Both the position numbers and the translations under genes were made by a program. From Ceratodon purpureus (taxonomy: Eukaryota > Streptophyta > Bryopsida > Pseudoditrichales > Ditrichaceae), in the NCBI GenBank assembly GCA_014871385.1, contig CM026432.1, positions 8,796,825 through 8,860,824 on the forward strand: a DNA stretch of 64,000 nucleotides, in the 5' to 3' direction. Below are positions 9,727-62,473 of this stretch, piece after piece. Below the pieces are notes generated by a model that was not told the DNA's origin, ran no database searches, and worked only from the letters and a program-made list of their open reading frames with translations. Numbering within the stretch: the first letter of the stretch is position 1; every line of letters starts with the position of its first letter.

Positions 9727-10884
9727 CTAAAACCAACCAAACCTTCTGGTCACCTTCCATTTCTCTTCGAAATCTTGTGTACTATGTAATAAACCTATTA
9801 TCTCGTTGAAAGTAGGTCGTTTCGAAGGCTCCGGGTGCCAGCATTTTTGCACCACCTCTTGTATCCAGGTAGGGATATAATCAGGCAAGGGAGGCCTTCC
9901 ACCCTCCAAAACAATGCCAAAATCAGCTGACTTCAAGCCCTTGATGTGATCAAACGGCATGCGACCTGTTAGAATTTCGTAACATGTGATTCCATAGCTA
10001 TAAGCATCAACTTTCTCTGTCCATATGTTTTCAAGTGATGCAGAACCATTCTTTTGTATAGTGCGTAACACTTCCGGTGCTCTCCAAAAACCTGTCCCCT
10101 GCACATTCTCCGAGCTTTCAAAATCCGCTATCAGATATAACTCGTCCCTAATTTCTCGCTCATCGCTACAGACATCGTAATCCTTGTCTAATCGGTCATT
10201 TGTCCATGCATTCAAGCTCAAGAGCACGTTTGAGGCTTTCAGATCACGGTGCAGGATGCCGTGAGCATGCAGCGCAGCCATCCCATGAGCTATGTTTGAC
10301 ATGATCTTCCTTGCCTCCTGAAACTCAAAAGGAGGACCGTGTTTGCGCTTGCGCATCCTAAGGTCGAGCACTCTGCGCAAGTCTCCCCAACACCTTGACA
10401 TCACAAATGCAAGCCTCCCATCCAGCAACGTAGCGCCCAAGATGCCGCAAACAAAGTCCGATGCAAAATCGCTGTGGAACATGCCTTTCGGCCAGAGGCG
10501 TTGCAGGTCAGCGAGTTTGTATCCTTGTTTGAACATCTTGACCACCACTTCCGTTGCTCGTTCGTTCCTTGTCCAAGTCCCTTCGAAGATTTCAGCCTGG
10601 CCTCCCTCCCCAATCTTCCGCCCTACCTTCAAACTCTCCCCGTAGTCCTTGAAGAAACGCTTCCTCGTGTTCTCCTTGAGGCCCTGGAAGAATTTGCCAT
10701 TCTCCGCCTGTAAATCTTCCTCTGAATCAGTCCACGCGCCGGCAGTGTCCACCTGCGTCCAGTGAGATTTTGACCTCTCGATCACAGCCTCCACATCGTC
10801 GCCGAACTCACTGAGAGAATCTTCTACAGCCGGTGTGAAGTACGCCTCAGAACTCTCAATACCGTCCGTGATGGGCGCCTCCAT
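9727..10884 (-). CDS. Protein kinase K0 with DFE in place of DFG
   Basis: A single open frame of 385 aa starting at the ATG at 10884; the GTG just before it is not used. Residues count from that ATG: glycine-rich loop KIGEGGQAEIF about 90-100, ATP-binding lysine in VVVKMF about 116, catalytic loop HRDLKASN about 212-219, DFE about 254-256, GTGFWRAPEVL about 263-273, and the C-lobe arginine of KRPTF. The catalytic Asp, Asn and Lys are present; only the Gly of DFG is replaced by Glu. The N-terminal 80 residues are acidic with a SHWTQVD motif like the SKVHWSTVD of K1-K5, and RLWPKGMF parallels KLWPEGAF. It is therefore a diverged relative of the array at 24-63 kb. It should phosphorylate Ser/Thr if active; substrate and location are unknown. 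No intron is needed. Confidence 0.88.
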   Translation of the reverse strand: MEAPITDGIESSEAYFTPAVEDSLSEFGDDVEAVIERSKSHWTQVDTAGAWTDSEEDLQAENGKFFQGLKENTRKRFFKDYGESLKVGRKIGEGGQAEIFEGTWTRNERATEVVVKMFKQGYKLADLQRLWPKGMFHSDFASDFVCGILGATLLDGRLAFVMSRCWGDLRRVLDLRMRKRKHGPPFEFQEARKIMSNIAHGMAALHAHGILHRDLKASNVLLSLNAWTNDRLDKDYDVCSDEREIRDELYLIADFESSENVQGTGFWRAPEVLRTIQKNGSASLENIWTEKVDAYSYGITCYEILTGRMPFDHIKGLKSADFGIVLEGGRPPLPDYIPTWIQEVVQKCWHPEPSKRPTFNEIIGLLHSTQDFEEKWKVTRRFGWF

Positions 10885-13800: not shown

Positions 13801-14008
13801 AATGTCCTTCGGTTAGCAACAGGTGCCAGGCTTTGGCTCTGGGTTAGGGCATCGCAGGTCCTTGATCTGTCCAGAATTGGAGACAATTTCGTGTCTGAGA
13901 TCAGGTTTTGGGGGAGAGAGAGAGAGAGGAGCCGCCTTTGTTGAATGTTGAAGGTTGTGAGTTGAGTTGCGAAGGAGAGAGAGAGTGCTGCTCTGTGATT
14001 TGGGAGCT
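10885..14008. other. Intergenic, with scattered protein-like segments but no confident gene
   Basis: The minus strand at 12392-12324 reads DDAESVIAFVARHTKEFGG then IDMV, ending at a GTACGT donor. This resembles the strand-helix before the NNAG motif of short-chain dehydrogenases. No NNAG exon, Rossmann GxxxGxG exon or YxxxK exon could be joined to it. A minus-strand open stretch at 12190-11970 and a plus-strand pair (about 12580-12630 and 12682-12780, ending in a Lys-rich tail and TAG) are also open but unplaced. GA-rich tracts at 13911-13930 and 13971-13984 lie in the probable 5' UTR of the next gene. Confidence 0.35.
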
Positions 14009-16991
14009 ATGGCGGGGGCTCAGACGCTGCAGCTGGTGGATGGCAAGGGGGTGTTCAATGCGGCGGGGCTGGAGGAGTTTGTGAAGGGCATAAGGCTGTC
14101 GGAATGCGGGCTCTCGTACGCGGTGGTGGCGATCATGGGGCCGCAGAGCAGCGGGAAGAGCACACTGCTGAACCATCTGTTCGGGACGAGGTTCGTGGAG
14201 ATGGACGCGTTCAAGGGGCGGAGCCAGACGACGCAGGGGGTGTGGCTGGCGCGAGGCGCCGGCATCGAGCCGACGACGCTGGTGATGGACTTGGAGGGCA
14301 CAGACGGGCGCGAGCGCGGGGAGGATGACACCGCATTCGAGAAGCAGAGCTCGCTGTTCGCGCTCGCGGTGTCGGACATCGTGTTGATCAACATGTGGTG
14401 TCACGACATTGGGCGCGAGCAGGCGGCCAACAAGCCGCTGCTGAAGACTGTCTTCCAGGTGATGATGCGTCTGTTCACTCCCCGGAAGACGACCTTATTG
14501 TTTGTGATCCGTGACAAGACGCGCACCCCGATCGAGACCCTGGAGCCGATCCTGCGCGAGGATATTCAGAAGATCTGGGACACGGTGCCGAAGCCGGCGA
14601 ATCATCAGCACACGCCGTTGAGTGAGTTTTTCAACTTGCAGGTGACGTCGCTGGCGAATTATGAGGAGAAGGAGGAGCAGTTCATGCAGCAGGTGGGGGA
14701 GCTTCGGGAGCGGTTCCAGAATTCGATCGCCCCAGGTGGGCTGGCCGGCGATCGGCGGGGCGCGGTGCCTGCCACTGGGTTTCCTTTTAGTACCCAGGAG
14801 ATATGGCGAGTGATCAAGGAGAATCGCGATCTGGATCTGCCGGCGCATAAGGTCATGGTTGCCACTGTCAGGTGTGAGGAGATCGCCCATGAGAAGCTCA
14901 AGGGGCTTGTTGCGGATGAGGAGTGGCGGGCGCTGGAGGCGAGGGCTAAGGATGATGTGGTGTTAGGGTTTGGGAAGTCTGTGAACGAGGTTGTGGAGAA
15001 GTATTTGAATGCTTATGATGTGGAGGCCGCCTTCTTCGATGAGGGCGTCCGAACCTCCAAGCGGACCTTTTTGATGTCCAATGTTTTGGATGTGTTGCAA
15101 CCTTCGTATGCTTCCGTGATCGGCCATCACCGAGCCAAGGCCTTGAGCTCATTCAAGGCGAGTTTGGACTCCGGTCTTGACTCGAATTCTGGAGAAGGAT
15201 TTGCCAGCATTGTGCGGCGGTGCTCTGAAGCAGTTTTGGCTGATTTTGAACGTGGCTGTGCTGGTGAGTGTGGATTGCATCTTGGGCTTGTGTATTCGAT
15301 TTCATCTTTTGTTGAGAGTGATGAGTGGGTATTCAGGATTAGTGTTTTTGATATTGGTTTTTGGAGATGTGTGGGGTTTTAGACTGGATTCTGAATTTTG
15401 AAGTCGTCTTCTCTTGGGGTTTAGTCTCTTCCGAGTGGAAAGTATATGCATGGTGTGGTTAACGGTGTTGGCATTGAACCAATTGGCAGAGTGTAAGTTG
15501 GGTTTGGATCTGCTAAGTTTCCAATGTTTGGTTATGGGAAGAGGGGTTAAGCTTTTGAGATTTCTTTCTCCGAATTGAGCTATTTTTATTGCTTTAAAAT
15601 ACGATTATTGGCGTTTGAGAATCGATGCAGATCGATGGTTTGCAGGATGCTGTTTTTGAGTATCATAGCTCGACTATTCGTTATGTCTTCATAGAGCATA
15701 AACCTGCGTTCTGTCACTGATTGAAGTGGCAAATTTGGTGCCTTCAGATGCGGATGTCGCTCACTCAGGATGGGACTCAACGAAGGCAAAAGAGAAGTTG
15801 TCTCGTGATGTAGCTGCACATGCTCAAACTAAGCGAACTGAGAAGCTGAACCAGCTTGTAGCAAAGTTTGAGAATGATTTGGAAGCTTCCATTGGAGAAC
15901 CTACAGCCTCGCTCTTGGACGCCGCAGCTCCTGATACATGGTCAGCTATTAGCCAACTTATGGAGCAGGAAGTCGACGATGCTACATCCAGATTATCAGA
16001 TGCAATTGTTGGCTTCGAGCCGTCTAAAGAAGAGGAGGCAAAGATCCGACAACATTTGTCTAAATATGGGCGAGGTGTTGTGGAGAAGAAGAGCAAGGAA
16101 GAAGCTTCTCAGGCTATTATTCGAATGAAAGAAAGGTTCACCAGCGTGTTTGGGCATGAAGCGGATAGCATGCCTAGGATATGGGGAGAGGACCACGATG
16201 TACGTGCTATTACACGGGATGCAAGGGCTTCCTCCTTGAAGCTTCTGTCAGTTTTGGCTGCCGTAAGATTGGATGAAGGCACTCAGAAAAATAACGCAAT
16301 TGAATCCTCTCTCAAACCGTTGATAGGAGACGGACCAGAGACTGGGCTTCAAAGGACATTATCTAGAGCTGTGTCTACTGGTAACAACACTACGCTTGCT
16401 AAAACCCAGTCATCGGCACTTCATGCACTCTCTCTGAGTACGTGGCCAGGTGTCGCTGCAAACGATACTTTGATCTCTCCCGTGCAATGCAAGTCCATCT
16501 GGAGGCAATTTACAGCTGAAACAGAGTATACAATCAGTCAAGCTATGGCTGCTCAAGAAGCTGCGAAACGAAACAAATCATGGTTACCTCCTCCATGGGC
16601 CATGATGGCAATGGTAGTACTTGGCTTCAACGAATTCATGGCCCTGCTCCGAAATCCTTTGTATCTTGTACTTATCTTTATTCTTTACCTGGTGGGGAAG
16701 GCCCTCTTTGTGCAGCTGGACATCTCTCGAGAGTTTGAGCATGGAGTCGTTCCCGGTTTGATATCTGTCTCCACAAAGCTGCTTCCCACTGTGATGAACC
16801 TCCTTAAGAAGCTTGCTGAGGAAGGCCAAGGAGTTGGCTCAGGAACTCAAAACAACACCAATCGCACGAATGGGACGGACAGAGACAGGCATAGAGAAAT
16901 GGACGACATGGCTACCGGACAGAGCTCTGTGTCTAACGAACCTCAGGCGAATGGTAACTTGAGACAGAGGCAGCCTGCTTTGGCGTCTTAA
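14009..16991 (+). CDS. RHD3: RHD3/SEY1-type atlastin GTPase
   Basis: Exons 14009-15263 and 15748-16991 (GT..AG intron of 484 bp) give 832 aa, the usual RHD3 length. RHD3 proteins are dynamin-like GTPases that fuse endoplasmic reticulum tubules and keep the ER network branched. Seen here: P-loop GPQSSGKST (44-52), SQTT switch region (72-75), [14 protein letters not shown] from residue 94, and RDK (168-170) as the G4 motif. A long helical middle domain follows, then WLPPPW and two close membrane segments (about 702-719 and 722-740) forming a hairpin. The cytosolic tail includes [18 protein letters not shown], the likely amphipathic helix. The ATG at 14009 matches the family start ([10 protein letters not shown]). 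There is only one intron, where the Arabidopsis gene has many, and exon 1 looks markedly more GC-rich than exon 2. Confidence 0.97.
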
Positions 16992-18285: not shown

Positions 18286-20466
18286 ATGAAAGGAGCTCAG
18301 AGAACTCAATTAAGCTTGTCAAGGAGGACTTGCAATGCCCACATTGACAGCATCGGAGGTTCGTCTATCATGACAATTCTTGCCTTGACAACGTGTTTGA
18401 GTGCTGTCCCTGCCCTCTCAAAACAGGCTAAGATCGGAGCCACAACAGTACCAACCAAAGCTGAACGGACAGCTTGCTGCAGTACTCCTTACACCGAGGA
18501 ATGTGTGTCCTCACTTACAGCTCACAGGACCAGTACAAACATCAATAATGACCAAGAGGCTAGCTTTCTGATCGCTGCACTGAGAAGCTCCGTAGCTGCC
18601 GTCCAAGATTTCAGAGGCCACTGTAAATCCGACTTCAGCGAAATTAGCAATTCCAAGACTTGTATGCACAGCACCTTGGGCATGTGTGTACAATCACTTG
18701 AAAGCACAGAGAATTACTTGAACTCCTCAATCTCCCACCTCGAGCTTCTGCCCGAATCAAACTCTGCTCCCTATATGATGGAAGACGTTTTAACATGGTT
18801 GAGTGCTTCTGCAACATATCATACAACCTGCATGGATGAGATGAGCCATTGCTCAGTTCTAGAAGATTTGAACATGAGTCTAATTCATGGAAACCAAAGC
18901 ATGGTAAGAGTTGCCAACTCTATCTCCCTCGCTCGGACAATGTATCAAAATTATGCATCTCCGAAGTCCGGTGAGATCCCAAATCGACGCCTCTTGGCTG
19001 CACCTGAGATAGCCATGTATGACATGGATGGGGATTATCCGCAGTGGATGAGGGTCGGTGTTCGCCGTCTCTTGCAGTCTAGTGTGAATGATACGCCATA
19101 TGACACAGTTGTAGCTAAAGATGGATCTGGAAATTACTCCTCGGTTCAGGCAGCTGTGAACGGCGCTCCTTCCAAGAGCAATGCATCATACGTCATCAGA
19201 ATCAAGCAGGGAGTTTATGATGAGCTTGTCAATATCCCCTCCAATGCTTACAACGTTATGTTTATTGGGGATGGGATCAACAAAACAATTATTACAGGGA
19301 ACGTGAGTGTGGTACAGAACGGTGTCACTACATTCAGAACAGGCACAGTTGGTAATCAATCTCCGTGATCCTCATCAATAGTAGTTGCTTGAATTGTGTG
19401 ATGGCTTGATTCTAACTCCTCACTGTTAGTAGGACAGAATTATTTCACTCTCTTGTTTTTGGAAAGTAATAATTGATTTCATTACCTTGGTAGTTTCTCA
19501 TTTTCTTGGGTAGACTACTCAAATGATTGATTAAAAAGCTAAATCTTTAGAGAAGATTCAGGATTTGTGGTACATGCACCAGATGTTTTCGAGCAGCCTG
19601 AACACATCCAATGTAATGAATATCACCACAGCAGCAGTTTATTATTGCAACATCTAGCATATATGTTACACACCTACGCACATCACAAAAATGAATAGGC
19701 GTTGCTACAATATTATGTACTTGCTGTAGAGCTAATGTATGATTGCTTTGGTCATGTGATACCAGCAATTGATGGGGATGGTTTTCTGGCCAAAGACGTG
19801 ACATTCCAAAACACTGCTGGAGCAGAAAATCATCAGGCAGTTGCTACCAGGGTTGACAGTGATAAATCAGCCTTCTACAGATGCTCATTCGAGGGATACC
19901 AAGATACCTTATACATACACAGCCTTCGGCAATTCTACCAATCCTGCACTGTATACGGAACTGTGGACTTCATTTTTGGAAACTCCGCAGCTATGTTCCA
20001 AAACTGTAACCTCGTTTGCCGAAAACCCCTGGAGTCCCAAGCAAACACTGTGACAGCACAGAGCAGAACATCTCTCGATCAGAACACGGGCTTCAGCTTC
20101 CAGGATTGCTCGGTTTCAGCCGCCCCAGAGTTGGCCAGCGTTGTTACAAGCATTTACAACCAATCTATTAAAAGCTTTCTGGGCCGCCCTTGGCAAGAGT
20201 ATTCTCGGACTGTGTTTATAGAAACCTACATGACGAATGTAATAAATGCTGCAGGCTGGGTTGATTGGAATGGAACCAACTTTGCCCTGGCTACCTTGTA
20301 CTTTGCTGAGTACCAAAACTTCGGCCCTGGAGGAAATTTCACGAACCGAGTGAGTTGGGCTACCAATATCACGGATCCTGAAGTTGCAGCTCAATATAGC
20401 ATCTCTTTCATTTCAGGTGCACAGTGGCTGCCTCAGACGGGTATACCCTTTTCCTCGAATATTTAG
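18286..20466 (+). CDS. Type I pectin methylesterase (pectinesterase with PMEI-like pro-region)
   Basis: Exons 18286-19351 and 19766-20466 (414-bp intron) give 588 aa. The enzyme removes methyl groups from cell-wall homogalacturonan. A hydrophobic stretch at about 28-44 (TILALTTCLSAVPAL) should target it to the secretory path. Residues about 62-222 form the four-helix pectinesterase-inhibitor-like pro-region with its spaced cysteines. RRLL at 234-237 and again at 260-263 are the processing sites cut by subtilases in the Golgi; having two is usual. The catalytic part starts at VVAKDGSGNYSSVQAAV. Active-site residues are in place: HQAVA (Gln379), GYQDTLY (Gln401, Asp402), YGTVDFIFGN (Asp423) and FLGRPW (Arg496). 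The family's single conserved intron position (after RTGTV) is kept. It looks functional. Confidence 0.96.
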
Positions 20467-24709: not shown

Positions 24710-26242
24710 TCAATATTCCTTTGCCAACTTCTTGGTTTCATCATAAATCTCATCGAATGTAGGCCTTTTGTCCTCATCTTGATGCCAACATCTTGTAATC
24801 AAATCCTTCATACTCCCATCTACATCGTCACGAAATGAAGGCCTCTTTCCGTTGATGACAAGATCTTGCTCTGTTCTAGTTCCTGAAAACCCTTCCAACT
24901 CAAAAGGAAGAAAGCCCGTTACAATTTCATAGCACAACATGCCATAACTATATACGTCTGACTTCTTTGTAAACAATGTTGGAGAACATCTCTTCTTTGG
25001 ATCCATCATGCCCAACAACACTTCCGGTGCTCTCCAAAACCCTGTTCCCATCACACCAAGTGCACATTCATAGTCTGATATTCTTTCCAACCAAGACCAG
25101 CCGGTCCTCTCCAAATTACTTGGAAAGTCCTCACCATGCCCATACAACAAGACATTGGATGCCTTGAGATCTCTATGCACCACATCATCCTCGTGTAACC
25201 ACTTCATCTCATATGCAATCCACCTCATCTTATCAAATACATCCTCAGTATTGAATGGCGGGCCTCTATTGCCATTGGCTTGCTTCTTCATGTCAATGAG
25301 CCTTCGCAAATCACCCCATGCTCTTTCCATCACCATTGCAATCCTCCCATCATTTGGCAACAACATCACATGCTCTATCTTTGTACCCCTTATGAAAGGA
25401 CTACTGAATGCACCCTCTGGCCATAGCTTCACAAGGTCTCGCAAATGATACCCTCGCGGAAACACCTTGAACACAACATGCCTTCCCGCCTCACCTTCTA
25501 ATAAATCTGTGCGAATTCCTGCATAGATCTTGGCTTCCCCTCCCTCAGCAATCTTCTCACGTCTTTCAAACAAAGTATCTCTGTCCTCCTGGAAACACCG
25601 ACCCCATGCATGATGCTGCCTCTGTTCCTTAATGGCCTCCCGGTTGGCTTTCAAAATGTCCTCATCCAGCTCTCTCTCATCAATAACTTCCTCACCTTCA
25701 CTCTCGTCTTCCGAAGAACCCCCACCTTCTTGAGCGGCACTTCTCCTCTCCGATGTCCTTCCTGCAGGCCGATCCACAGTGCTCCAGTGCACCTTGGAGC
25801 TTGCGATCTCATATTCTACATCGTCTGAGCATTTGGCCCGATTCTCTATCATTGACTGGATGCGTGCCGAGTAGTACTGTGTGGCACAGGCGGAGGCAGA
25901 TGGAGAACTTGCATCCGTGGAAGGAATCGCAGGTGCTTGACCAGGGGATAGACAGCCTTGAAAAGCCTTGAAGAGGAAATTGGAGAACACCAAGACGACG
26001 GAGTGCCAAGCTGTGGTACACGTTGATGTAGAATTTGCATCACGCGGACCAGAAGTAGAAACAAGCGCTTCATTCTTACCAGCACGTCCTCTTTGTCTTC
26101 TAGAATTTGCAGTCTTGCGATGCAGCTGAGGGTTTTCTCCATCCGAAGTCGAAACTTGAACTGCGGTCGGGAAATTGGAGCATAGCTCTGACACTGTATT
26201 GTCTGCGTCCTGACGGGTGTCGTCAGCAGAGACGGTCGCCAT
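24710..26242 (-). CDS. Protein kinase K1 of the tandem array (DYE in place of DFG)
   Basis: Single open frame, 510 aa from the ATG at 26242 (MATVSADDTRQD); upstream in-frame TTG codons are not starts. The N-terminal about 215 residues are low-complexity (Ser, Arg, acidic GGGSSEDESEGEE) plus conserved YYSARIQSMIENRAKCS and SKVHWSTVDRPAGR. Kinase domain: KIAEGGEAKIYAG loop about 230-242, lysine in VVFKVF at about 259, HRDLKASN about 356-363, DYE about 390-392, GTGFWRAPEVLLG, SDVYSYGMLCYEI, and RCWHQDEDKRPTF. The Mg-binding Asp is kept but Phe-Gly becomes Tyr-Glu, and the activation loop before APE is very short. Substrate unknown; the general fold is TKL-like. N-terminal residues 1 to about 370 are the same as K3. 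Confidence 0.88.
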   Translation of the reverse strand: MATVSADDTRQDADNTVSELCSNFPTAVQVSTSDGENPQLHRKTANSRRQRGRAGKNEALVSTSGPRDANSTSTCTTAWHSVVLVFSNFLFKAFQGCLSPGQAPAIPSTDASSPSASACATQYYSARIQSMIENRAKCSDDVEYEIASSKVHWSTVDRPAGRTSERRSAAQEGGGSSEDESEGEEVIDERELDEDILKANREAIKEQRQHHAWGRCFQEDRDTLFERREKIAEGGEAKIYAGIRTDLLEGEAGRHVVFKVFPRGYHLRDLVKLWPEGAFSSPFIRGTKIEHVMLLPNDGRIAMVMERAWGDLRRLIDMKKQANGNRGPPFNTEDVFDKMRWIAYEMKWLHEDDVVHRDLKASNVLLYGHGEDFPSNLERTGWSWLERISDYECALGVMGTGFWRAPEVLLGMMDPKKRCSPTLFTKKSDVYSYGMLCYEIVTGFLPFELEGFSGTRTEQDLVINGKRPSFRDDVDGSMKDLITRCWHQDEDKRPTFDEIYDETKKLAKEY

Positions 26243-34526: not shown

Positions 34527-34528
<2 letters not shown>

Positions 34529-45199: not shown

Positions 45200-48100
45200 C
45201 GGGGCTCGTAGAGTACACAGAATCATATCCTGCCGTCGTTTGGTCGCATCTGGACATGTTCAATCTTCGGTCCTCTTAAATGACTCTTGAATGCGTCTTT
45301 CGGCCATCTCGGGGTGGCCACATGCATGGTTCAGTTTCTAGAGTGAAGTGTGGGACTGGGAGCGATGTCCAAAATCTAGGACAGGGGGGTTTGCAAATTG
45401 TACTATCTTGGTAGAAACAACTTCCACAAAACAGACATAACGGAGCAACACCCATGAGCTTAAGAGTTTTGAGCATGTTTTTTGTTTCTGGTATATTTAG
45501 ATTTATTGGATCAGATTAGTAAAAGAGAAATAATCCCAATGCACTTTGAAATGCATTATTTGGACAATGTTTGGATTTTTAAAGGGCTTACCATGGATAC
45601 ACTTAATGTCGACTCTAGGGTTTGGTATTCAAATGCAGTACATCTTTACAAACATATCTATTCATTTCTCTCTAGGTTTTTCAAGATTTAGAAGGGACAC
45701 TTATCGGTACAAAGACGCTTATTGATGTTGTTACCTTAAGTTGGAATGAATTAGTACTCATATTTGAATAGATTTTGGCTTAGTGTGTGTGAATGACTTT
45801 GTGGCCAATCTTTTGAACTTGGTCTTTCGTTTCTTAAAATTTAGAAATATGAGTGTTTACGTTGTAGTAGATGTGGCCTTTGTTCTTGGTTGGCTTTTGA
45901 TATTTCCTTGTGGATTTTTCATCTAGGTTGATCATCAAATTATGGATTCAAAATAGATTGAAAGGCTTCTAGATTATTAACCCCTAAAGGACAATCTGCC
46001 TCATTTGAGCTTTTTTGGAATTTGGGCATGTACCTATGAATGCAATTTGTATCAGGATTTTCTGAAATTTTTATTGAAGGTGGGCCGTTTGGAGATCTTT
46101 GAGTGGGTATTTTTATTTTTCAATTCCAACATTGGGATCAAAAGTTATGAAGGTCTAAGTGTCAAACACTGCTCATTGGGCAGCTGCTGAATTTTTCTAA
46201 GCCACCCCAAAACTGCCCAAAACTGCCCAAAACTGCCAAAATTTGCTCAAAGACGAAACTTTGAAATTCCACCAAAAATTGAGATTTTGATATTTTTAAA
46301 AAATAAAAATTTCCATGTATAGAGAAGGCAGTAGAGCATGTTCCCACCGTTTGGATTTTCAATCCAATTTTTTTTCATATGCTATTTTTATTGTCCAAAA
46401 ACGGCCTTTGTTTGTGAATTTCAGTGTGAATTTCAGTATACCCCCTAGCAGAAAATGATTTTCTTGGCAACTTTCTACAACTTTTTTGAATATAATTTTC
46501 TTATTACAATTAGCTAACTTAGTCTTCTTTGACGTGCATCAAAACCCCCAAAATTCATAATGCAAAAAAATGGTTTTTTGGGCCTTCAAAACTCTACTGT
46601 CCCCTTTTTTTGCAGGGAAAAAAACTTGTTTTCTACTTTGAACGTTACGATCTTGCAATTGGTGAAGAATGTGTGTGAGATTTGGCGGAAATGTAGATAT
46701 AGAAGTTAGCTACAAGATCTTACGGTTAGATGTTCTAAAAAAGACCCCAAGTTTGCAAAATCCACCTTGCTTTGAAGAGGGGCTGTTTTGAGGCAGTTTT
46801 GATGAAAAATACCCTCAGAACTTTAGGGGTTAAGATATAGTAGGAGTTTCTTATCTAATGTGAGAAATCTAAAATAATGTTATGGACTCATTTTTTATTT
46901 TTTTGAGAGTGGCTAATTCAAAAAAGTTATTTTTCTTAGATGTTTTAGAATAAAACCAAAGAAAATTGGTCCTCTTAAAATTTCTTTATTACTTAATCAA
47001 CTTCAACAAAAATAAAATGAAAATTGGTGATTTTTATACCTTTGATTGAATTTCAAAGAAAAATTATTGGAAAGTAATTTAGAAACATTGATATTTCTTC
47101 AAGAATCTTTGAAAAGCCTAACACTTTTTCAATCAAAAAGCAAGAGTGCGTGTAAAGTGTCATAAGCCTAATCGATAAAAAACACAAAATTTGAAGCCAT
47201 TTTGATATTTTATTCTATGATATTTTTGGAAGATATATATAATTTAATATTTTTTCATTCTTCTTTGTTGGATCAAATATTCATAAGTATTTCAAATATT
47301 GTATTTAAAGAATTTACTATGAAGATACAATACATTGCTTATAATGTATTAAAATCCAAAATTGATAACATGCTTTTAAAAATGATATGCAAAAACATCA
47401 AGTTTTTGATGTACCAAAATTTGTTTAATTTTCTTTCAACTCCAATTGATTTTTCATTGAACATTGTAAAGGGGTAAATTTTGAACTAGTATCAAACATA
47501 ATAAAATAAAATTACAATTTTGTTCTATAACAAAACTTTATTCATATGTAAATTGTCAATTACAAGCCAAAATCATAATAGAAGTGCTTATATATAAAAT
47601 TCTTCTGTTTAGGACTTTTATTGCTTGCAACATTTTCAACTACTTTGAGGGTTATTTATATCTTGTTTGGTATTATTTTAGATCTTTTCCATTTCTCCTT
47701 TGAAAAAACTCACATTTTATATCTTTAAATGTATAATGTCACATAATGCATGTTATGAATGCTTCATCATTTGTTTATAGAAATTCTGAAATATTGAAAA
47801 ATGTTTGTAAATTATATCTATTTTTACATTCTAAACTATGGAACTAATCAAATATAGTCATTGCAAAACTACATTAGCACATAATGAAAATTTTATATAT
47901 TTATGTATATATTTCTACCAAAAATACATTATTAAATTCAAAAATCGTTTTTTAACTTATTGATACTAGAACTTTCTATGATAAATGGAAAAGCCTAAAT
48001 ATTTGAGATTCTATTATGATATGAATTTTTTTAAAGTTATAGCTACTTGGTCCATGCAAAAATACCGTGGAAATAGTACTAGATGTATATTTTTCTTTCA

Positions 48101-51571: not shown

Positions 51572-53116
51572 TCATTGTCTATAAATATACCACAAAAATT
51601 TAGTCTCATCAACAATCTCTTTGAATGTGGGCCTTTTCTCCTCATCTTGATGCCAACATCTTGTAATCAAATCCTTCACCCTACCATCTACATCGTCAGG
51701 AAACGAAGGCCTCTTTCCATTGATAACAAGATCTTGCTCTGCTCTAGTTCCTGAAAACCCTTCCCGCTCAAAAGGAAGAAAGCCCGTTGCAATTTCATAG
51801 CACAACATGCCATAACTATATACGTCTGACTTCTTTGTAAACAATGTTGGAGAAAATCTCTTCTTTGGATCCCTCATGCCCAACAACACTTCCGGTGCTC
51901 TCCAAAACCTTGTTCCCATCACACCGAGTGCACATTCATAATCTGATATTATTTCTATACAAACACGAGTGTCCATACTCTCCAAATTGCCACATCTAGT
52001 AGAAAAATCGTCACCATTCCCATACAACAAGACATTGGATGCCTTGAGATCTCTATGCACCACATCATCCTCGTGTAACCACCTCATCTCACTTGCAATC
52101 CACTTCATCTTATCAAATACACCCTTAGTATTGAATGGCGGGCCTCTATTGCCATTGGCTTGCTTCTTCATGTCAATGAGCCTTCGCAAATCACCCCATG
52201 CTCGCCTCATCACCATTGCAATCCTCCCATCATTCGGCAACAACATCACATGCTCTATCTTTGTACCCCTGATGTATGGACTGCTGAATGCAGCCTCTGG
52301 CCATAACTTCACAAGGTCTCGCAAATGATACCCTCGCGGAAACACCTTGAACACAACATGCCTATCCGGCTTACCTACTGATTCATCAGTGCGAATACCT
52401 GCATAGATCTTGGCTTCCCCTCCCTCAGCAATCTTCTCACATCTCTCAAACAACCTATCTCTCTCCTCCTGGAAACACCGACCCCATGCTCGATGCTACC
52501 TCTGTTCCTTAATGGCCTCCCGGTTGGCCTTCAAAATGTCCTCATCCAGCTCTCTCTCATCAATAACTTCCTCACCTTCACTCTCGTCTTCCGAAGAACC
52601 CCCACCTTCTTGAGCGGCATTTCTCCTCTTGGATGTCCTTCCTGCAGGCCGATCCACAGTGCTCCAGTGCACCTTGGAGCTTGCGATCTCATATTCTACA
52701 TCGTCTGAGCATTTGGCCCGATTCTCTATCATTGACTGGATGCGTGCCGAGTAGTACTGTGTGGCACAGGCGGAGGCAGATGCAGAGCTTGCATCGAGGG
52801 GAGGAACTGTAGGTGCTTGGTCTGGAGGAGGAGGGTCTTGAAGGGCAGTGTGGAAAACGGAGCTCTCCGACAAGAGCGAGTGGTTCCCTGTGGTAGAGGT
52901 TGATGTAGAGTTTGCATCACGTGGTCCAGGAGTAGAAACAGGCGCTTTATTCTTACCCGCACGTCTTCTTCGTCTTCTAGAGTTTGCACTCTTGGTATAA
53001 AGCCCAGGTTTTTCTTCGGTAGAAGAGACTTGCATTGCAGTTGCGAAATTGGAGCACAGCTTCGACACAGTAGTGTCTGCTTCCTGACGGGTGACTTCAG
53101 GAGAGATGGTCGCCAT
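51572..53116 (-). pseudogene. Kinase K4, one in-frame stop
   Basis: Starts MATISPEVTRQEAD at 53116. It is open except for TAG at 52498-52496 in KEQR(stop)HRAWGRCF; the other copies have CAG (Gln) or AAG there, so this is a single C-to-T change. Without it the product would be 514 aa. Downstream kinase parts are intact: KIAEGGEAKIYAG, VVFKVF, HRDLKASN, ISDYECALG, WRAPEVLLG and EEKRPTF. A longer insert lies before DYE (ESMDTRVCIEII). GTGFWRAPE reads GTRFWRAPE. Re-initiation at a downstream Met could only yield a product lacking the N-terminal 200 residues. Confidence 0.88.
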
Positions 53117-53751
53117 GCCGCTCAACGTGCGATCCAACAACAAATTGCCGTAGAAATATGGAATTGCTGGACTCTCTGCAAAGCCTTAAGAATTCTCAAA
53201 TCCTACTGTATCCACAACGTTTTCATGTCTAGCCAGATGCAATTAAACCACATCGCTGAAGAAGTAATTAACCAGTGCAAAGTAGCAGATTCAAACACAC
53301 TGCACCCGTTCATATCAAACCCTAAGTCAAAAGCACACTACGAATGTACACGAAGGAACACAAGCTCTCTTCGAGCACACCCACTCTGAATGGCAGAAAT
53401 CGAACTAGATTCAAGCAATGAGACATTCAGACCACAGCTCTGCAACTCGACCATCCTTGCTCGCATGAATCCCCAAATTACCCTTACGCTTCCAATCTCG
53501 AAAACATGATCCAGCTGTGAGAGCTACACCACAGACAGATCACTTCGTCCAGGAGCTGACCTCAAACATCGATCCATGGACATTTGAAGCAGCGGCATCT
53601 GGATCAAACGCCAGAAGTTGATAGACACTCACCAAACCAGACTCACGATGCTCCGAAAGTGCCTCGCGGCCAGCCTCGCTGATGTCTGCGGTCCTCGTGA
53701 ACGGCGCTACTGAATAGAACGAAAAGCTCCAAGGCACAGTATGCACTGGGA

Positions 53752-54110
53752 GACGACCAGGTCAATTGATTTGCGTAACGCGGAGACACTGAAACCCTGG
53801 GAGGAAGTACAAAAGTCGGCAGAAGGCGCAACCCAACTGGAAAGAGACGAGTGAAAGAACCCCAACACAGTCTTTCTCCACGGCAGATTGTAAAGCACTC
53901 CTGGAAACCCAAGAGAAACTGAATCCCTGGAAGACGACCAGGTCGATTGTCTGCAAACAGAAAGACTTGGTCTTTGCGTAACGTACAGACACTGAAACCC
54001 TCGCAAGATGCACCAAAATCGACAGCAGGCGCAAGGGGATTGGAAAGAGATGAGTGAAGGAACCCCACCACACACGTTCTTCACGGCAAATTACAGAGCA
54101 GGCTTGGAAA
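53752..54110. repeat. Tandem ~181-bp repeat upstream of K4
   Basis: Counterpart of 32034-32400, again two units. The first unit lacks several bases after GGTCAATTGATTTGCG, so both loci inherited the duplication and then diverged. Confidence 0.8.
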
Positions 54111-54391
54111 CTGAGAGGAACTTTGCAACACGTCAAATGCTCATCATTAGTTCCAACTTCCGCTCCCAATTACCTGTTCCATTCAGGCTGAAGAACGGGT
54201 ACCGACGTCACCGGGGTCTCGATGTCGCGTGCATTGGCCACAGTCCCAAGCTAGGTGTTCATCGACGGAGCAGTGAGTGGAGGAATATATCTCAATGAAG
54301 CCACAGTAAACAAGTCGCCATTGTAACATTCAGCATTGCTCGTAGTGAGCGACGTCAAATCTCTTCACAGAGATCATTATTACCAACAACT

Positions 54392-55065
54392 GACATCACT
54401 TCATGGCCATTGACTCCCTCCTCGGTGCATCTGAAGCATCGACTAGAGCAATGTTGCCATTGTGGGAAAGCAAGGATTTTATGCAACAGGTCTCTCAATC
54501 CTGAAAGGGACAGGAATGAATTCTTGAAGCTGTATCCGGCAACACAAACACAGACACAGGGTTCAAGGTTGAGCACCAAGGCAGTTGTGGGGAACCCAGA
54601 ACTTGAAGTGAGAAATGGTGCCGAATGGATGAGTATGAGAGCTGAATATCAAACTGAAACCTCTGACTTGTCATGGAACTAGACCAGTTTATAGAGAGTA
54701 ATTTCACTGTGAAAGTGAAAGATCAATGTAGGTCAACAATCGGCACACATATTGCAATAATCTTGATCGGATAATAATTCAAGATGAGATTGGCTCTTAA
54801 GAATCTTACCTATACTCTCACATTTGGATACTTTGGCATCTCAAATGTTTTTCCCATGAAGGTTTTTACTAACGAAGATTTTAAGAGATAGTTCATGAAG
54901 TTGTTGTCTTATTAAAAGGTTGAATTTGATTTTGTTTGAATATATGTATTCTACCAAAATTGCAAACATTAAATGATGTGAGACTTATACCAAGCCAAAC
55001 TTGAATTGAGTTTAGTTAAGAAATGGTCTTTTAAAATGAAGTCATAGTGATAAATAACCAAAAAA
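54392..55065. repeat. Array 5' block P, copy 4
   Basis: Plus-strand frame 54403-54504 (MAIDSLLGASEASTRAM to TGA). Collinear with 32672-33330; joins the long spacer repeat without a break. Confidence 0.8.
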
Positions 55066-56227
55066 CATCAAAATATCATCATGTGAATGATGTTTCTATA
55101 TTAAATCCATTTTAACAAATGAAATTCAATATTTTTTTTAACATTTTTTCATTTGGTTTCTTAATTATGAGTTTCCTTTAGAAACAGTAATAAATTATAA
55201 AAGTAGCATACTAGAATCAAGTTGTGTGGGTGGGATCCAAAATCAAGGCACAACTTTCATTTGTACATGTGAACCTTCTAAGATTTTAAAGATATCTTAA
55301 AGTGTTTAACAACCTTGGGCAATTAGAGGCTAAAATATTGTCTACTATTAGAAGTATTGCATTTGATTATACTTTGAACTTGATGCAAAACAAAATATAA
55401 ATGTCCCATAAATTAATTCTATTGCAAGGGTTTTGCTCTCATTTCAAAACCATGATATATCAGGTTTACTTTAGATTTCAAAACATGTTTCAATGTTTAC
55501 AAAACCACTTTATTCCAAATAGATATACAATACGTTGTTTGATTATTTCCATCATGCTCACATAATTTGTTCACAAGAAACAAAAACAATGTTTCTACTT
55601 ACAAATATTTTCCGCTCTCTACTTACTGTAGACAAAAGGTATTTTAGCAACAAAAAAATTTCAGAATATTATCGTGTTAAGAATTTCTCAATTTAACCCC
55701 TAATGTCGAATGCCTTCAAAATCGCAAAAAACACTCAAAACTGCCATCTTTAAATGCAAGGTGCATATTTTTTTATTTTTGATGTAATTTTGAGTATGCA
55801 ATCGTAAGATCTTGTACCTGACTTGTATGTGCATAGGTATGTCAAATCTTAAATTTAAATTCCTTACCAATTGTGAGATCATAATGTTTAAAGATGGAAA
55901 AAAAGTTTTTTTTTGCTTGTTGGAAAAAGGATAACTGGTTTTTTGAGGGTCAAAAAAATCATTTTTGGTAAAAAATTTGATATGAGGCTCTTCAAATTCT
56001 TGTTTTTAGGTGAGTTAGGAACATGCCTTTGTAATTTTTACCCTCATACGACCTATAAAACGTAAAGAAATGCTTGATTATTCACATAGAGGTATGCTGA
56101 AATTCAACTACAAAGGCCAATCTTTAACAATAAAAAATGCATGTGAAGAATAATAGGATTGTAAATCCAAACGGTGAGATCATGCCTTAAAACGTTATTT
56201 ACTTTAAAAAAAAAATAATAATAAAAA

Positions 56228-56269
<42 letters not shown>

Positions 56270-59200
56270 TGAAAAAAAGTATAATCTCAATTTTTGGTGA
56301 ATTTTTGAAGTTTCTGCAATTTAATTGATTTTGGGCAGTTTTTGAGCATATACCGCAGTATGGTCAGTTTTGGGCAAATTTCAAATAGTGTTATCAAACT
56401 TTGACTGCGGATATCTCCCAAAGTATGAGGAATTTTGAAGCGTGAGATGACTCTTCGGAAAGCTATGAAAAAACTCTACAATATTCCAAAATCAGAAACT
56501 TCATTTTATCTAAATATAGTAATTGCGAGCTTGATCGGACCGAAATCGACCCTAATCGGGTTGATTTGGACATTAGGGGTTAAATTTTAAACCTATTTTA
56601 ACATGTAATTCTTTGAAAACATTAATATTTTGTTTGTTATCCAATTTTAGAAAGTTGTTTTCATCACAAGTTTTTAATTCTACATTAGTTACTAGTAATA
56701 AAGTAATGGTTATAGAATTCAAAATTCTCTACTTTTAGTTGTAATGTCATCACCTTTAATAATTATACTCCTTGAAGTAATTGTACTTTGATACGGTTTT
56801 GGAAAATCTTCTTTTTGTAGATATCTTTTACAATTTAGACTTTATAGTGTCATTTGAAACTATAGATGTTGCAACTGATTGGATCAAAATTTAATGTAAG
56901 ATCCACAAAATGTAAGATAACACAAATCAATTCTATTGCAAAGGTTTTGATTCCAACAAAATACCATGGATAATCATGTTTATCTTTGGAATTTCAATGA
57001 AAATTCATTACTAATGAAACTTCTTGTCTAGTTGGAAGAACTTCCAAAAATATCAAATATGCAAGTGAATTCCAAATCATATAAAAAGCCACAACCATGA
57101 AAACAAAATTCATTCAAACAACCCAAAACAAATGGATGAATTTTAAGAAAGTCTTGTTGTATACCAATTTCTCATTGTCCATTCATCACAACAATATACA
57201 ATGGATTCTAAACATAGTTTTGGCAATGAGAATTTGAATAAGTGCTTTCAATTAAGAAAAAATAACAAACTTGTCTATCAAGGAATCAATTCAGTTTCTA
57301 CATCTTCTTCTAATAATCTCTCATGCCCAATCAAGGTCAACAATGGTACAATTAGAATACCTATATTCACCTAATTATGGACTTTTGAAATTCCATAATT
57401 AAACCTTGTTGCATTTATAGAAAAGTTAGTTGCAGTCAACAATTAAGAGGTATTGAATACCGTAGGTGGAGCTGGTTCGACACTTCTTTGTCGAATAATT
57501 AATAAAAGTGAAAAACTTGCATTCGACACCTAAAACTGATTTATTGGTCATTTTGGCAATTTTCTCCTTAAAATTTTAAATTCCGTCATGTTGTCATGAT
57601 CAAGACTTTACATCAAATTGGTATGTGAGACTTTGGGTGTGGAGAGTTAGGACTGCTCTGTACTTTATACAAGTGGAGTGGAGTTGTATCCAACAATCCA
57701 TGTGGGATATGTGAACTTTGAGGTGAAGCACCTAGTTAGTCTTTAATTTTATAACATGCATAGCTTTTGCATAAAGTCTTCAAATGACATAAAATTTGTT
57801 GGAGGTGAAAGAGTACTTGATTCCTAAGATTTTCTTTGACCAAAACAATTCCAAAAAAGTTGATCCTCTAAGCACAAATGAGCTTTGAAAAACTGTTAGA
57901 AACGCAGTTTGACACATAGATCTTTACAATGTTTTTTTGTCTATATCTTTTGCATAAAAACTTATTTTAACACAAAATTTGTTGGAAGTGGAAGAAGGCT
58001 TGATTCCTCAACTTTTCTTAGTTTGAAAAAATTCCATTAAACTTCATCTTCTATGCTTAATTGGACTCCAAAATTTGTATACAACACATTTCAAAAACCT
58101 CACCTAGAGTCTTGCTACGTCTTAACCCATACTCTTTGTGGACTAATGTAAGTGGGTTTGATTACAAAAGGAGCACCTTCTCCCCATTGAATCTCAGACA
58201 TCTTCCATTTGGGGTTGATCGTAATGAAAAATTCCAATTTTTTTCCTTTTTGGCAAATCTGAATTGTAATTTATGTAATATTCGGCAAAAAATACCAATA
58301 ATTTTCCAAAGTTTTCGGCACCTGATTTTTGAATTATTTAGTGTCGAACCGGCCCTCCACCTACGGTATGTATAGAAGTAATGATAAATTATGTATAATA
58401 TTGACTTTAAAATAAAATATAATACTTTTAATGCTCATTGTGTTCCATCTATCATATTTACAACTTGAAAACGATCAAAATAATGCTTTTTAAGCAAAAA
58501 ATTGGTCCAAACAACAACTTTTGACAAAAAAATTCAAGAAAAAAATCTTTATTTATTTTCCTTTCAAACCGCTTTATAGGCCTTCAATGAAAGACTATAA
58601 AGTTCAATATTGAGTGTTTTGTCTATAATTAGTTAATCTTTAAAAACAATTTGCCCCATTTGGGCTTTTTTTGAATTAAGGCATGTACTTGGACTTTGAG
58701 GGAATCTCATTTTTTTTCAATTAGACAATTAAAAAAATAGTTATGGCATGTAAAGTGAAATTTTGTGTTTAGTGGACAATTTCGGCAGCCATGCCAAATA
58801 TGTGTATTACCTCTGAATTCTTTTCTATGAATACTTAATGTTGTCATCTCTGAGATTTCCTAAAAAAAGACTTCTTTCACTACAAAATGTTCGACACTCT
58901 ACAAAATATCAAATTTTTCTCACCGTTTCCGGAACTACACCAAAAACATTTCTTCTTTCCTTCATAAGTTAGAAAGTTTGATTTTTTAGTTTTTCTCTTT
59001 TTTTCACTTGATAGATGGACATCAATCTTTACTTTGACCATTGGAATTGGGACTTTTTAACATAATCATGGAATTTCTAGGAAAGAAATATGAATTAGCA
59101 TTCTTGTGTATTTACCTTAATAAAAATATTGTTTTCAACACGCTACTCTTGTCTTTTGTGCGTAATTCTTCTTATACAACTAGTTTACTTAGTCTTCTTT

Positions 59201-60967
59201 GTCATGCACCAAAACCCCCAAAATCCATAATGCAAAAACCTAAGGAAAAAAAAAAATAAGAGTGTGTCACCTAATCAAAAATCGTGTCAAAAAAGTATGT
59301 TTTCAAATTTCAATCCCTATAATCTTCTAATCTCTACGGTGGATTATGAATCATGATGAAATTTATTGACCTATCTACTACAATAATCTTATTTAAAATC
59401 TTACGGTTAGAATTAGAAAGTAATGATATTTTAGTCAAGGCATACTTTTTACATTGGAATTGGCAATTTTGGAGCGTTTTTTGGTAAAACATAGTCAAGG
59501 AACTTTAGTGGTTAAATATATGTTACAACCATAACTTTGATAAGAGAGATATTCAAGATGATATTAATGTGGATTTTCTTTAAAGCGACCAAATACATAA
59601 AGCTAATCAATAGACTTCCTGATTGACAATCAAAGATCATATGATTCATTTCTGATTTGACTTTCTAAAGTCAATTAATTCACAATGAAGCAATCAATCA
59701 ATAGCTCTCAAGCATGAAGAATTGAAAAAATAATAGTAATCAATTTTAGATTTTGTCATAAGCGGGAAATTAATGTCACATGTGTTTTGATATGAAGATG
59801 TCTATTGATCAAAATAGGTCACCCAAAACCTTTTCACTTCAAGAGTTGTACAAATTTCACAATTGGAAAGCAACTCATGTAAAAATCCGAATTCCTCATG
59901 AAAACTAACCTCCAATGTCTAGAAAATTATTACTCTTTAAATGGCTTGTTAAAAAGTAGTGTAGATAGCTTAAATTATCAAAAAAAGGTATTACACCCAG
60001 AACCTCAACGCATACCTTGAGTATTTTTGCTTCTCAAAATCCTTTCACCATGAAGCATTTCACCACCAAAGAATTTTTAAGGAATATGTCATAGGGTTAT
60101 TGTCATATTCAAATAGTTTAATTTGGTATTACTAGAATATATTTTTATCTAGAATTACAAACATTGATGTATGACGAACTTTTTCCAATCCAATTTTGCT
60201 TTGACTTTAGTTAATACAAATAAATTTGATACAATTATGATGTCAAGAAAATCTTGTGTAAAATCCATTCCAACAAATAAATTTAGTGAAATGTTGATAT
60301 TTTGTTTTTGATGCAACTTTGGAAGGACTCTTTTATTATAAGTATTAGATATCATTATAAATTGATGGTAAAATATTGTTGAATCTAGTTGTATGGATAG
60401 AATCTAAACTTCAAAGTGATCTACTTTCCTTTGCACAACATTTCTAAAATACTCTTTGTAGTCATGCTTTACAGTGGATTTTAAAACATCTTATGCTTTA
60501 GAGAAATCTCTTGAAGTTCAAACATTATAATATTGTCTAAACAAACCATGAAGTATTATCTTTAGAAATTAGAGATGTTGAGATAAATTGAGATCTAAAC
60601 TTAATTCAAAAACACAAAATTTAAGCATACCATAAACCAAGTCTATAGCAAAGTATTTTTTATTGCAAATGGAAAAGCATGGAAAAAAATGTTTATTTAT
60701 GGTTTATGAAAAAAAAGTCATTGTTACCGGGACTTATTGACCAATTAGAAGAACTTCAAAAGCATTCAAAATAGATCAAATACGCACATAAACTCTATAT
60801 CATGTATAAAGTCACAAGCACAATAACAAAATTAATTCAAACGACACAATCCCAAAATATTGATTTGAAAGTTCTATTACATACCACTGTTTCATTGTGA
60901 CAATCATCACATGAATTCATGGCAAATTTAAAATGTTTTGGTTTATATCAACAAGTAATAAAGACTC
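55066..60967. repeat. Long AT-rich spacer, copy 2 of the 5.9-kb direct repeat
   Basis: Partner of 33331-39205, offset about 21.7 kb. Differences are single bases and short indels (for example one extra GTTCGACACTCT stretch near 58890). No gene. Confidence 0.88.
57460..58366. mobile_element. Non-autonomous TIR element with TA flanks, copy 2
   Basis: Same element as 35703-36607 and the better preserved of the two: both ends read CCGTAGGTGGAG (right end reversed, CTCCACCTACGG), followed inward by GGTTCGACACT, and both are bordered by TA. 907 bp. Confidence 0.68.
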
Positions 60968-62473
60968 CTACATGTCATAAAGTTCAACAAAAATCTCTTC
61001 CAAAGTGGGCCTTTTGTCCTCATCTTGATGCCAACATCTTGTAATCAAATCCTTCATCCTACCATCTACATCGTCAGGAAACGAAGGCCTCTTTCCATTG
61101 ATGACAAGATCATGCTCTCCTCTAGTTTCTAAAAACCCTTCCCGCTCAAAAGGAAGAAAGCCCGTTGCAATCTCATAGCACACCATGCCATAACTATATA
61201 CGTCTGACTTCTTTGTAAATAATGTAGGAGAACATCTCTTCTTTGGATCCTTCATGCCCAACAACACTTCCGGTGCTCTCCAAAACCCTGTCCCCATCAC
61301 ACCTAGTGCACATTCATAATCTGATACCACATGTTGTCGAATGCTCACCAAACTACTACGTTGAGTAGAAAAGTCATCACCATCTACATACAACAAGACA
61401 TTGGATGCCTTGAGATCTCTATGCACCACATCATCCATGTGTAACAACATCATCTCCCTTGCAATCCACCTCATCTTCTCAAATACACCCATAGTATTGA
61501 ATGGCGGGCCTCTATTGCCATTGGCTTGCTTCTTCATGTCGATGAGCCTTCGCAAATCACCCCATGCTCTTTCCATCACCATTGCAATCCTCCCATCATT
61601 CGGCAACAACATCACATGCTCTATCTTTGTACCCCTTACGTAATCAGTGTCAAATGCACCCTCTGGCCATAGCTTCACAAGGTCTCGCAAATGATACCCT
61701 CGCGGAAACACCTTGAACACAACATGCCTACCCCCCTCACCTTCTAATTTATCTGTGCAAATCCCTGCATAGATCTTGGCTTCCCCTCCCTCAGCAATCT
61801 TCTCACCTCTCTCATACAACCTATCTCTGTCCTCCTGGAAACACCGACCCCATGCATGATGCTTCCTCTGTTCCAGAATGGCCTCCCGATTGGCCTTCAA
61901 AATGTCCTCATTCAGCTCTCTCTCATCGATAACTTCCTCACCTTCACTCTCCGAAGAACCCCCACCTTGAACGGCACTTCTCCTCTCCGATGTCCTTCCT
62001 GCAGGCCGATCCACAGTGCTCCAGTGCACCTTGGAGCTTGCGATCTCATATTCTACATCGTCGGAGCATTTGGCCCGATGCTCTATCATCGACTGAATGC
62101 GTGCCGAGTAGTACTGTGTGGCACAGGCGGAGTCAGATGCAGAGCTTGCATCCAGAGGAAGAACTGCAGGTGCTTGGTCGGGAGGAGGAGAGCCTTGAAG
62201 TGCAGTGTGGAAAGCGGAGCTCTCCGACAAGAGCGAGTGGTACCCTGTGATAGAGGTTGATGTAGAATTAACATCACGCGGTCCAGGAGTAGAAACAGGC
62301 GCTTTATTCTTACCCGCACGTCTTCTTCGTCTTCTAGAGTTTGCACTCTTGGTATAAAGCCCAGGTTTTTCTTCGGTAGAAGAGACTTGCATTGCAGTTG
62401 CGAAATTGGAGCACAGCTCCGACACAGTAGTGTCTGCTTCCTGACGAGTGACTTCAGCAGAGATGGTCGCCAT
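60968..62473 (-). CDS. Protein kinase K5 of the tandem array (DYE in place of DFG)
   Basis: Single open frame, 501 aa from the ATG at 62473 (MATISAEVTRQEAD). The N-terminal part is closest to K4 (SSTEEKPGLYTKSANSRR), while the 3' part and downstream flank are closest to K3. It has a shorter acidic tract (GGGSSESEGEE) than the others. The kinase residues are complete: KIAEGGEAKIYAG, VVFKVF, HRDLKASN, SDYECALG, GTGFWRAPEVLLG and RCWHQDEDKRPT. The tail ends EEIFVELYDM. With K1 and K3 it is one of three open copies in the array and the best candidate for an intact representative of the K4-type N terminus. Confidence 0.88.
   Translation of the reverse strand: MATISAEVTRQEADTTVSELCSNFATAMQVSSTEEKPGLYTKSANSRRRRRRAGKNKAPVSTPGPRDVNSTSTSITGYHSLLSESSAFHTALQGSPPPDQAPAVLPLDASSASDSACATQYYSARIQSMIEHRAKCSDDVEYEIASSKVHWSTVDRPAGRTSERRSAVQGGGSSESEGEEVIDERELNEDILKANREAILEQRKHHAWGRCFQEDRDRLYERGEKIAEGGEAKIYAGICTDKLEGEGGRHVVFKVFPRGYHLRDLVKLWPEGAFDTDYVRGTKIEHVMLLPNDGRIAMVMERAWGDLRRLIDMKKQANGNRGPPFNTMGVFEKMRWIAREMMLLHMDDVVHRDLKASNVLLYVDGDDFSTQRSSLVSIRQHVVSDYECALGVMGTGFWRAPEVLLGMKDPKKRCSPTLFTKKSDVYSYGMVCYEIATGFLPFEREGFLETRGEHDLVINGKRPSFPDDVDGRMKDLITRCWHQDEDKRPTLEEIFVELYDM

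Follow-up and report, generated by a model that had tools for sequence, protein, structure and literature searches.

Kinase genes on the minus strand of the window

The stretch of DNA analyzed here, referred to as the window, is a 64-kb segment of the genome of the moss Ceratodon purpureus (C12:8796825-8860824; 362 Mb in 151 contigs). Its minus strand carries six homologous kinase genes, K1 to K6, one divergent and two broken, which were located from a list of open reading frames and by tblastn. By sequence, their products belong to the eukaryotic protein kinase superfamily, TKL group, minus the DFG Gly and the αC Glu, and they are members of a large moss family that we provisionally call the DFE kinases. 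With tblastn, the principal segments of these copies gave E values of 0 to 1.6e-52, so their homology is not a matter of chance, and the six related genes on one strand that a preliminary description of this DNA had reported are indeed present.

Four of the genes are intact. K1 (9727-10884), the divergent member, is a single open frame of 385 amino acids with a DFE motif at 10117-10125. K2 (24710-26242), K4 (39206-40777), and K6 (60968-62473) encode 510, 523, and 501 amino acids, with DYE motifs at 25067-25075, 39602-39610, and 61313-61321, respectively. K3 (29787-31404) is broken by a frameshift in the β7-β8 loop, and 119 bp at its 3' end are duplicated in tandem (29786-30022). K5 (51572-53116) is interrupted by an in-frame TAG at codon 207 (52496-52498), with the kinase part otherwise open and DYE at 51935-51943. 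The remnant of a seventh copy, also on the minus strand, lies at 45226-45306 (28 amino acids, 61% identity to K6, tblastn E of 1e-5). No extra copies were found by tblastn in the flanks of the window, 60 kb to the left and 100 kb to the right. K1 shows about 34% identity to K2 through K6, and K2 through K5 show 78 to 84% identity to K6. The kinase profile PF07714 matched four window proteins with E values of 5e-25 to 1.5e-36, the best being K1. At the DFG position K1 has DFE and K2 through K6 have DYE, and the Lys, HRD Asp, and Asn are retained. The window copies also carry the N-terminal motif SK(V/S)HW(S/T)xVD, in which K3 has VE in place of VD. The catalytic residues, the missing DFG Gly, and the N-terminal motif had all been read in this way in the preliminary description.

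Duplication and gene conversion in the array

The tandem array, its gene conversion, and its pseudogenes are real. A block consisting of K3, the intergenic DNA, and K4 (29910-42041) matched the block containing K5, the intergenic DNA, and K6 (51606-63722) by self-blastn at 94.5% and 88% identity. Since the K3-K4 and K5-K6 stretches match at a single offset of ∼21.7 kb, a two-gene block has been duplicated. A second event involves K2 and K4: 1,549 bp on the minus strand (25131-26679) are identical to 39666-41214 in K4, and the tract ends inside the β7-β8 loop. Past it, identity is ∼65% in the next 100-column window and then 93 to 95% through the rest of the kinase domain. The long identity, the sharp drop in the loop, and the subsequent recovery indicate recent gene conversion. 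The mosaicism and the pseudogenes (K3 and K5) of the preliminary description are thus borne out.

The β7-β8 loop, which in K2 lies at 25076-25153 (minus strand) between HRDLKASN and DYE, is the coding stretch in which K2 and K4 diverge most, with a nonsynonymous divergence (dN) of 0.89 and a synonymous divergence (dS) of 0.79; the C-lobe of the same pair gave a dN of 0.03 and a dS of 0.18. Across six usable pairs, K5 being excluded from all per-region comparisons, the loop had dN of 0.18 to 0.97 and dS of 0.24 to 0.99, with dN/dS near 1, and K4 versus K6 was far less divergent than the other pairs (dN of 0.18 and dS of 0.24). An intron within the loop of K2 through K6 was considered as the source of the variability and was rejected. 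The one candidate donor/acceptor pair inspected by eye would give an out-of-frame join, length differences among the open copies are multiples of three, and hydrophobic β8 residues are conserved ahead of DYE.

Genome-wide occurrence of the family

When the whole genome was searched with K6, 92 rows matched, representing at least 83 places with the six window copies included. This is a lower bound, with 86 of 660 candidates scored and nine split pieces merged into their parents. Stops occurred inside 10 of the 92 rows, and the other 82 had none. The codon pattern for GTGFWRAPE gave 82 exact matches in the genome versus none in a reversed control. Of these, 45 coincide with places from the K6 search, and the other 37, identified by the codon pattern alone, would raise the total to as many as 120. 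The 83 to 120 places form 95 groups under a 50-kb rule, and only 15 groups have more than one member within 50 kb. Neither the K6 search nor the codon pattern placed any DFE kinase on contigs C1 and C6. The latter is a very large contig (at least 96 Mb) that is presumably a sex chromosome of Ceratodon. On C13, nine GTGFWRAPE matches lie within ∼220 kb (C13:9101541-9319053), eight of them with near-identical codons and one (C13:9145540) among the 83 places; this is probably another, larger array. The local expansion of the preliminary description is confirmed as a tandem array and is too narrow in its extent, because the array holds six of at least 83 places genome-wide. That description had also considered a widespread, single-copy family already assigned to a known kinase group; so far the family is far from single-copy in this genome.

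Of the 77 places that lie beyond the window, 60 supplied sequences, which together with K1, K2, K4, and K6 made a set of 64. Seven with short or broken longest frames (L032, L035, L048, L050, L052, L069, and L084) were dropped before alignment. The resulting alignment of 57 rows includes K1, K2, K4, and K6 and excludes K3 and K5.

Conserved and altered catalytic residues

The β3 Lys, the HRD His, and the APE Glu are present in all 57 rows, and the HRD Asp, the Asn, and the DFG Asp are each present in 56. Of the 57 members, 55 have the Lys, HRD Asp, Asn, and DFG Asp together. The DFG Gly is replaced by Glu in 56 rows and by Lys in one (L071), and no row has Gly. In protein kinases the β3 Lys normally pairs with the αC Glu. 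The corresponding column of the DFE kinases holds Gln (40 rows), Leu (11 rows, K2, K4, and K6 among them), five other residues, and one gap, so that no acid occurs in the 56 residues present. This loss of the αC Glu is the second half of the rewiring and was absent from the preliminary description.

The very short activation loop reported there is a family-wide property. The distance from DFE (or DYE) to APE is 18 residues in all 57 rows, compared with 27 to 32 in the 13 of 17 relatives whose segment length was usable (L088, L090, L092, and L097 were not counted). Within the shortened loop one Ser is common, in 48 of 57 rows. The glycine loop is AEGGQA-like instead of GxGxxG, with the third Gly changed to Ala in 54 of 57 rows. 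The N-terminal block, SKxHW(S/T)E(L/V), is likewise a signature of the whole family, with its Trp present in 51 of 55 rows. Pfam searches of three window N-terminal regions, up to an E value of 5, found no DUF1221 or MLKL domain and no match above the cut-off. The sole match was to the unrelated PF22144 (E of 0.052, 12.8 bits against a cut-off of 26).

Phylogenetic placement

A kinase-domain phylogeny, suggested as a check in the preliminary description, was built by maximum likelihood from moss sequences, AtMLKL2/3, and a few outgroups. The DFE kinases formed one clade on a long stem, with support of 100/99 in a tree that took in 28 of the 57 rows and 100/100 in a second that took in 18 and left out L027_C. 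A larger clade (97/95 and 100/97) joined them with AtMLKL2/3, five PNL-type kinases, the kinase at L089, and the C-terminal kinase of L025 (L025_C). Outside it in both trees were the insulin receptor, a Raf-like kinase, and six moss kinases of the RLK type; the second tree placed MLK1, MLT/ZAK, and a Src-Abl ancestor there as well. The six RLK-type kinases formed a separate clade (100/100), and the DFE kinases are thus not within the RLK/RLCK clade. With few outgroups in the trees, the exact group to which the DFE kinases belong is provisional, and within the larger clade their sister is weakly resolved: the grouping of L089 and MLKL with the DFE clade received 78/84 in the second tree. The PNL-type kinases, L089, L025_C, and AtMLKL2/3 all retain DFG or GFG and have 28 to 32 residues to APE.

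Searches of the PDB pointed the same way. For K6, K1, and L037, the only recognized plant chains among the 60 matches listed were 6lba and 6ka4, at ranks 1 and 25, 2 and 3, and 2 and 3, respectively. The two chains are listed as a protein kinase family protein and as F22L4.1, and we take them to be AtMLKL2 and AtMLKL3, respectively.

Two further loci touch on this kinship. At L085 (C7:7769900-7771600), the one PNL-type kinase of the five whose neighboring NB-ARC was checked, a kinase exon lies 1.2 kb upstream of an NB-ARC match and has 6lba and 6ka4 as its top two PDB matches (E of 2e-38 and 9e-36). Its layout is that of the PNL class (Xue et al. 2012, PMC3352924), and the matches suggest a common kinase lineage for plant MLKLs and the kinases of moss kinase-NLR (nucleotide-binding leucine-rich repeat) proteins. 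L089 (C1:24270581-24271357) is a DFG-type kinase in an 844-amino-acid frame with LIDMKRR...PPF and WRAPE features that are otherwise typical of DFE kinases, and it is a possible intermediate whose tree position is weakly supported. A viral origin was also considered and rejected, as K1 had no pattern match among the IMG/VR viral contigs, a search that would reveal close relatives only.

Domain fusions

Several members carry additional domains. L025 (C13:11176700-11180700) is a 1,077-amino-acid open frame containing a degenerate DFE kinase (GFE, with the Asn and DFG Asp lost), a linker, and a DFG-type kinase of the MLKL/PNL clade, and it looks like a tandem kinase protein. L026 (C5:10151000-10156000) is a 1,225-amino-acid open frame in which a DFE kinase is joined to a DUF7025 and an AAA ATPase domain. 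L027 and L028 have a second kinase domain, which is degenerate.

Comparison with known kinase systems

The closest known relatives are the kinase domains of moss PNL (Pkn-NLR) proteins, which belong to the same TKL sub-clade as the DFE kinases (100/97) and are likewise expanded in mosses. The PNL class has a kinase, then an intron, then a nucleotide-binding site (NBS), and 45 such genes were reported in P. patens (Xue et al. 2012, PMC3352924). For Ceratodon purpureus itself, more than 315 NLR-related loci were reported, and in Nicotiana the kinase domain of a P. patens Pkn-NLR gave a modest, variable response (Chia et al. 2024, PMC11218826). Unlike the DFE kinases, PNL-type kinases keep the DFG, the αC Glu, and a 30-residue activation segment. 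Membership of the PNL class, in which NB-ARC and LRR exons come after the kinase exon, was rejected: among 83 DFE kinase places and 119 NB-ARC matches, both sets being lower bounds, none of the kinases neighbors an NB-ARC match, and the nearest pair is 10.0 kb apart end to end and 10.96 kb between centers.

Plant MLKLs share the sub-clade, supply the plant chains among the listed PDB matches of K6, K1, and L037, and have an atypical DFG region. They differ in bearing an N-terminal HeLo/DUF1221 bundle (PMC10951266), which Pfam did not detect in the three DFE kinase N-terminal regions. Resistance proteins with kinase fusions or tandem kinases, Pm13 among them, are also kinase-based (PMC10951266), and a second kinase domain is present in L025, L027, and L028. 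The kinase of Pm13 belongs to the LRR_8B type (PMC10951266), whereas the DFE kinases lie apart from the six moss kinases of the RLK type. AtMLKL2/3 have GFG and an Arg at the β3 Lys, whereas the DFE kinases keep both the Asp and the Lys.

Two further groups, the choline-kinase-like families and MNK1/2, also bear comparison, and we take MNK1/2 to keep the αC Glu. In the choline-kinase-like families (CAK, including ChoK and FadE) the DFG Gly (G186) is a Glu, as in the DFE kinases; the motif sits near residue 72, the β3 Lys position, with which E186 may form a hydrogen bond (Kannan et al. 2007, PMC1821047). These families are not eukaryotic protein kinases, and they keep E91 and have an Arg at the Lys position (PMC1821047), whereas the DFE kinases keep the Lys and have lost the αC Glu. 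MNK1/2 are eukaryotic protein kinases in which an acid replaces the DFG Gly, and they differ from the DFE kinases in being CaMK-related and in their DFD-out form and kinase inserts (PMC3326643, PMC1821047).

Other features of the window

Apart from the kinase array, the window contains an 804-bp inverted repeat (2557-3360 and 6199-7002) with arms that are 99.9% identical and ∼2.8 kb apart. Three short open reading frames between and beside the arms had no Pfam match, and the repeat is possibly a recent mobile element. The plus strand carries exons of an RHD3/Sey1-type GTPase at 13967-16991 (PF05879, E of 1.7e-108; PF20428) and, at 18286-20466, two exons of a pectin methylesterase whose N-terminal part is a PMEI domain (PF04043, PF01095).

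Proposed mechanism and alternative explanations

We propose that three linked changes were fixed on the family stem, namely, loss of the αC Glu, replacement of the DFG Gly by Glu, and removal of about a dozen activation-loop residues, with the Lys, HRD Asp, Asn, and DFG Asp preserved throughout. The Glu of DFE, which lies two residues after the metal-binding Asp, would then become the counter-ion of the β3 Lys, and binding of ATP and Mg, and probably phosphotransfer, would go on without αC movement or activation-loop phosphorylation. Such a kinase could be always on, or it could be controlled by the N-terminal SKxHWSEL segment and partners. Because the activation segment is so short, control through loop phosphorylation is unlikely, and the N-terminal block or partner proteins would be the likelier controls. 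The repertoire would grow by birth and death, through tandem blocks, gene conversion, loop swapping, and pseudogenes, and would most likely serve in intracellular immunity, either as signaling kinases or as decoys watched by receptors. An immune role is the best single guess on account of the copy number, the broken copies, the block duplication, the conversion, the hypervariable loop, and the kinship with MLKL and kinase-NLR kinases. Our favored reading, held tentatively and a little short of an even chance, is thus that the DFE kinases bind ATP, with the DFE Glu replacing the αC Glu as the partner of the Lys, and form a fast-evolving repertoire that most likely serves intracellular immunity. 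A bolder version, in which this "acid-swap" family would be the first eukaryotic protein kinases to have moved the Lys partner from helix C to the DFG motif, with a minimal fixed loop and both classical switches gone, and would have been amplified to NLR-like numbers as an intracellular immune repertoire from the MLKL/kinase-NLR lineage, appears rather unlikely.

A number of observations weigh against the favored reading. With regard to the Lys-Glu pair, an AlphaFold model of K1 based on four window sequences had a mean predicted local distance difference test (pLDDT) score of 38.6 and was not used; it gives no support to the pairing. A Glu stands two residues before the αC column in 13 of 57 rows, in which the helix register or the Lys partner could therefore differ. 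The choline-kinase-like families, which offer the precedent for a Glu at this position, keep E91 (PMC1821047), and the DFD motif of MNK2 turns "out" with its Phe blocking the ATP site (PMC3326643, PMC1821047). Given that blocked form, an acid at the DFG Gly may equally hinder nucleotide binding. The counts themselves lean toward intact copies because the seven sequences dropped before alignment were incomplete. With regard to kinship, L089 taken alone matched Src-Abl, MLK, and B-Raf PDB chains with higher scores than AtMLKL3, which ranked 11th. With regard to immunity, a comparison of 83 DFE kinase places with 119 NB-ARC matches (from a list of at least 121, two on small contigs being omitted) found none within 10 kb and no NLR fusion. 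Whole-gene dN/dS among K2, K4, K5, and K6 was 0.53 to 0.66, i.e., below 1, in a comparison in which dS against K1 was saturated. Positive selection in the β7-β8 loop was rejected, as dN was about equal to dS, and swapping or weak constraint would explain the loop equally well. From the glycine loop to HRD, K6 versus K2, K4, and L031 also gave dN close to dS (0.070/0.074 twice and 0.077/0.073), compared with a dN/dS of 0.2 to 0.4 in the C-lobe. The resemblance to immunity genes proposed in the preliminary description therefore holds for the array, the conversion, the pseudogenes, and the MLKL/kinase-NLR kinship, and it does not extend to NB-ARC neighbors or to dN/dS.

A serious rival is that the DFE kinases are pseudokinases, having the kinase fold and perhaps nucleotide binding without phosphotransfer, and acting as scaffolds, baits, or decoys for pathogen effectors. 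The loss of the αC Glu and the DFG Gly, the shortened activation loop, and the change of GxGxxG to AEGGQA would all fit this, as would the GFG of AtMLKL2/3, the absence of the Asn and DFG Asp from the fusion member L025, the degenerate second kinase domains of L027 and L028, and the blocked ATP site that accompanies the acid at the Gly position of MNK2. We nonetheless consider it somewhat unlikely, because 55 of the 57 members retain the Lys, HRD Asp, Asn, and DFG Asp together, a pattern that is difficult to account for across that many divergent copies unless nucleotide or Mg handling is under selection.

The genes might instead encode ordinary signaling kinases of abiotic stress or development with no link to immunity, the arrays and conversion being simply the fate of young duplicates. 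The whole-gene dN/dS below 1, the lack of any NLR fusion found in the NB-ARC comparison, and the dispersal of the places over 95 groups would fit this view. The placement beside MLKL and kinase-NLR kinases, a copy number of similar order to the NB-ARC list (121 matches), and a hypervariable loop with conversion argue against them, and we regard this explanation as quite unlikely. Largely neutral duplication of a gene with a single exon, perhaps through retroposition, with most copies having no selected function, would account for the dispersed members that match as one open frame, for the broken copies (K3, K5, and others, with stops in 10 of 92 rows), and for the near-equality of dN and dS from the glycine loop to HRD, but it is very improbable given the 82 rows free of stops, the catalytic residues fixed across long branches, the C-lobe dN/dS of ∼0.2 to 0.3 among K2, K4, and K6, and the origin of the window array itself by DNA-level block duplication.

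Implications

The preliminary description had not recognized these genes as a described subfamily, and our search of the literature, which covered few subscription papers and no supplements, likewise found no description of the family or the motif; a kinome catalogue may already carry the genes under a clade number. The DFE kinases would make up a sizeable class of moss proteins near the kinase-NLR and MLKL kinases, in a group of plants whose intracellular immunity is barely known. The salt bridge between the Lys and the αC Glu and the Gly of DFG are textbook features for calling a kinase active or dead. At least 83 places in the Ceratodon genome have changed both and kept the other catalytic residues, and they constitute a natural experiment on how a kinase works, or stops working, without them.

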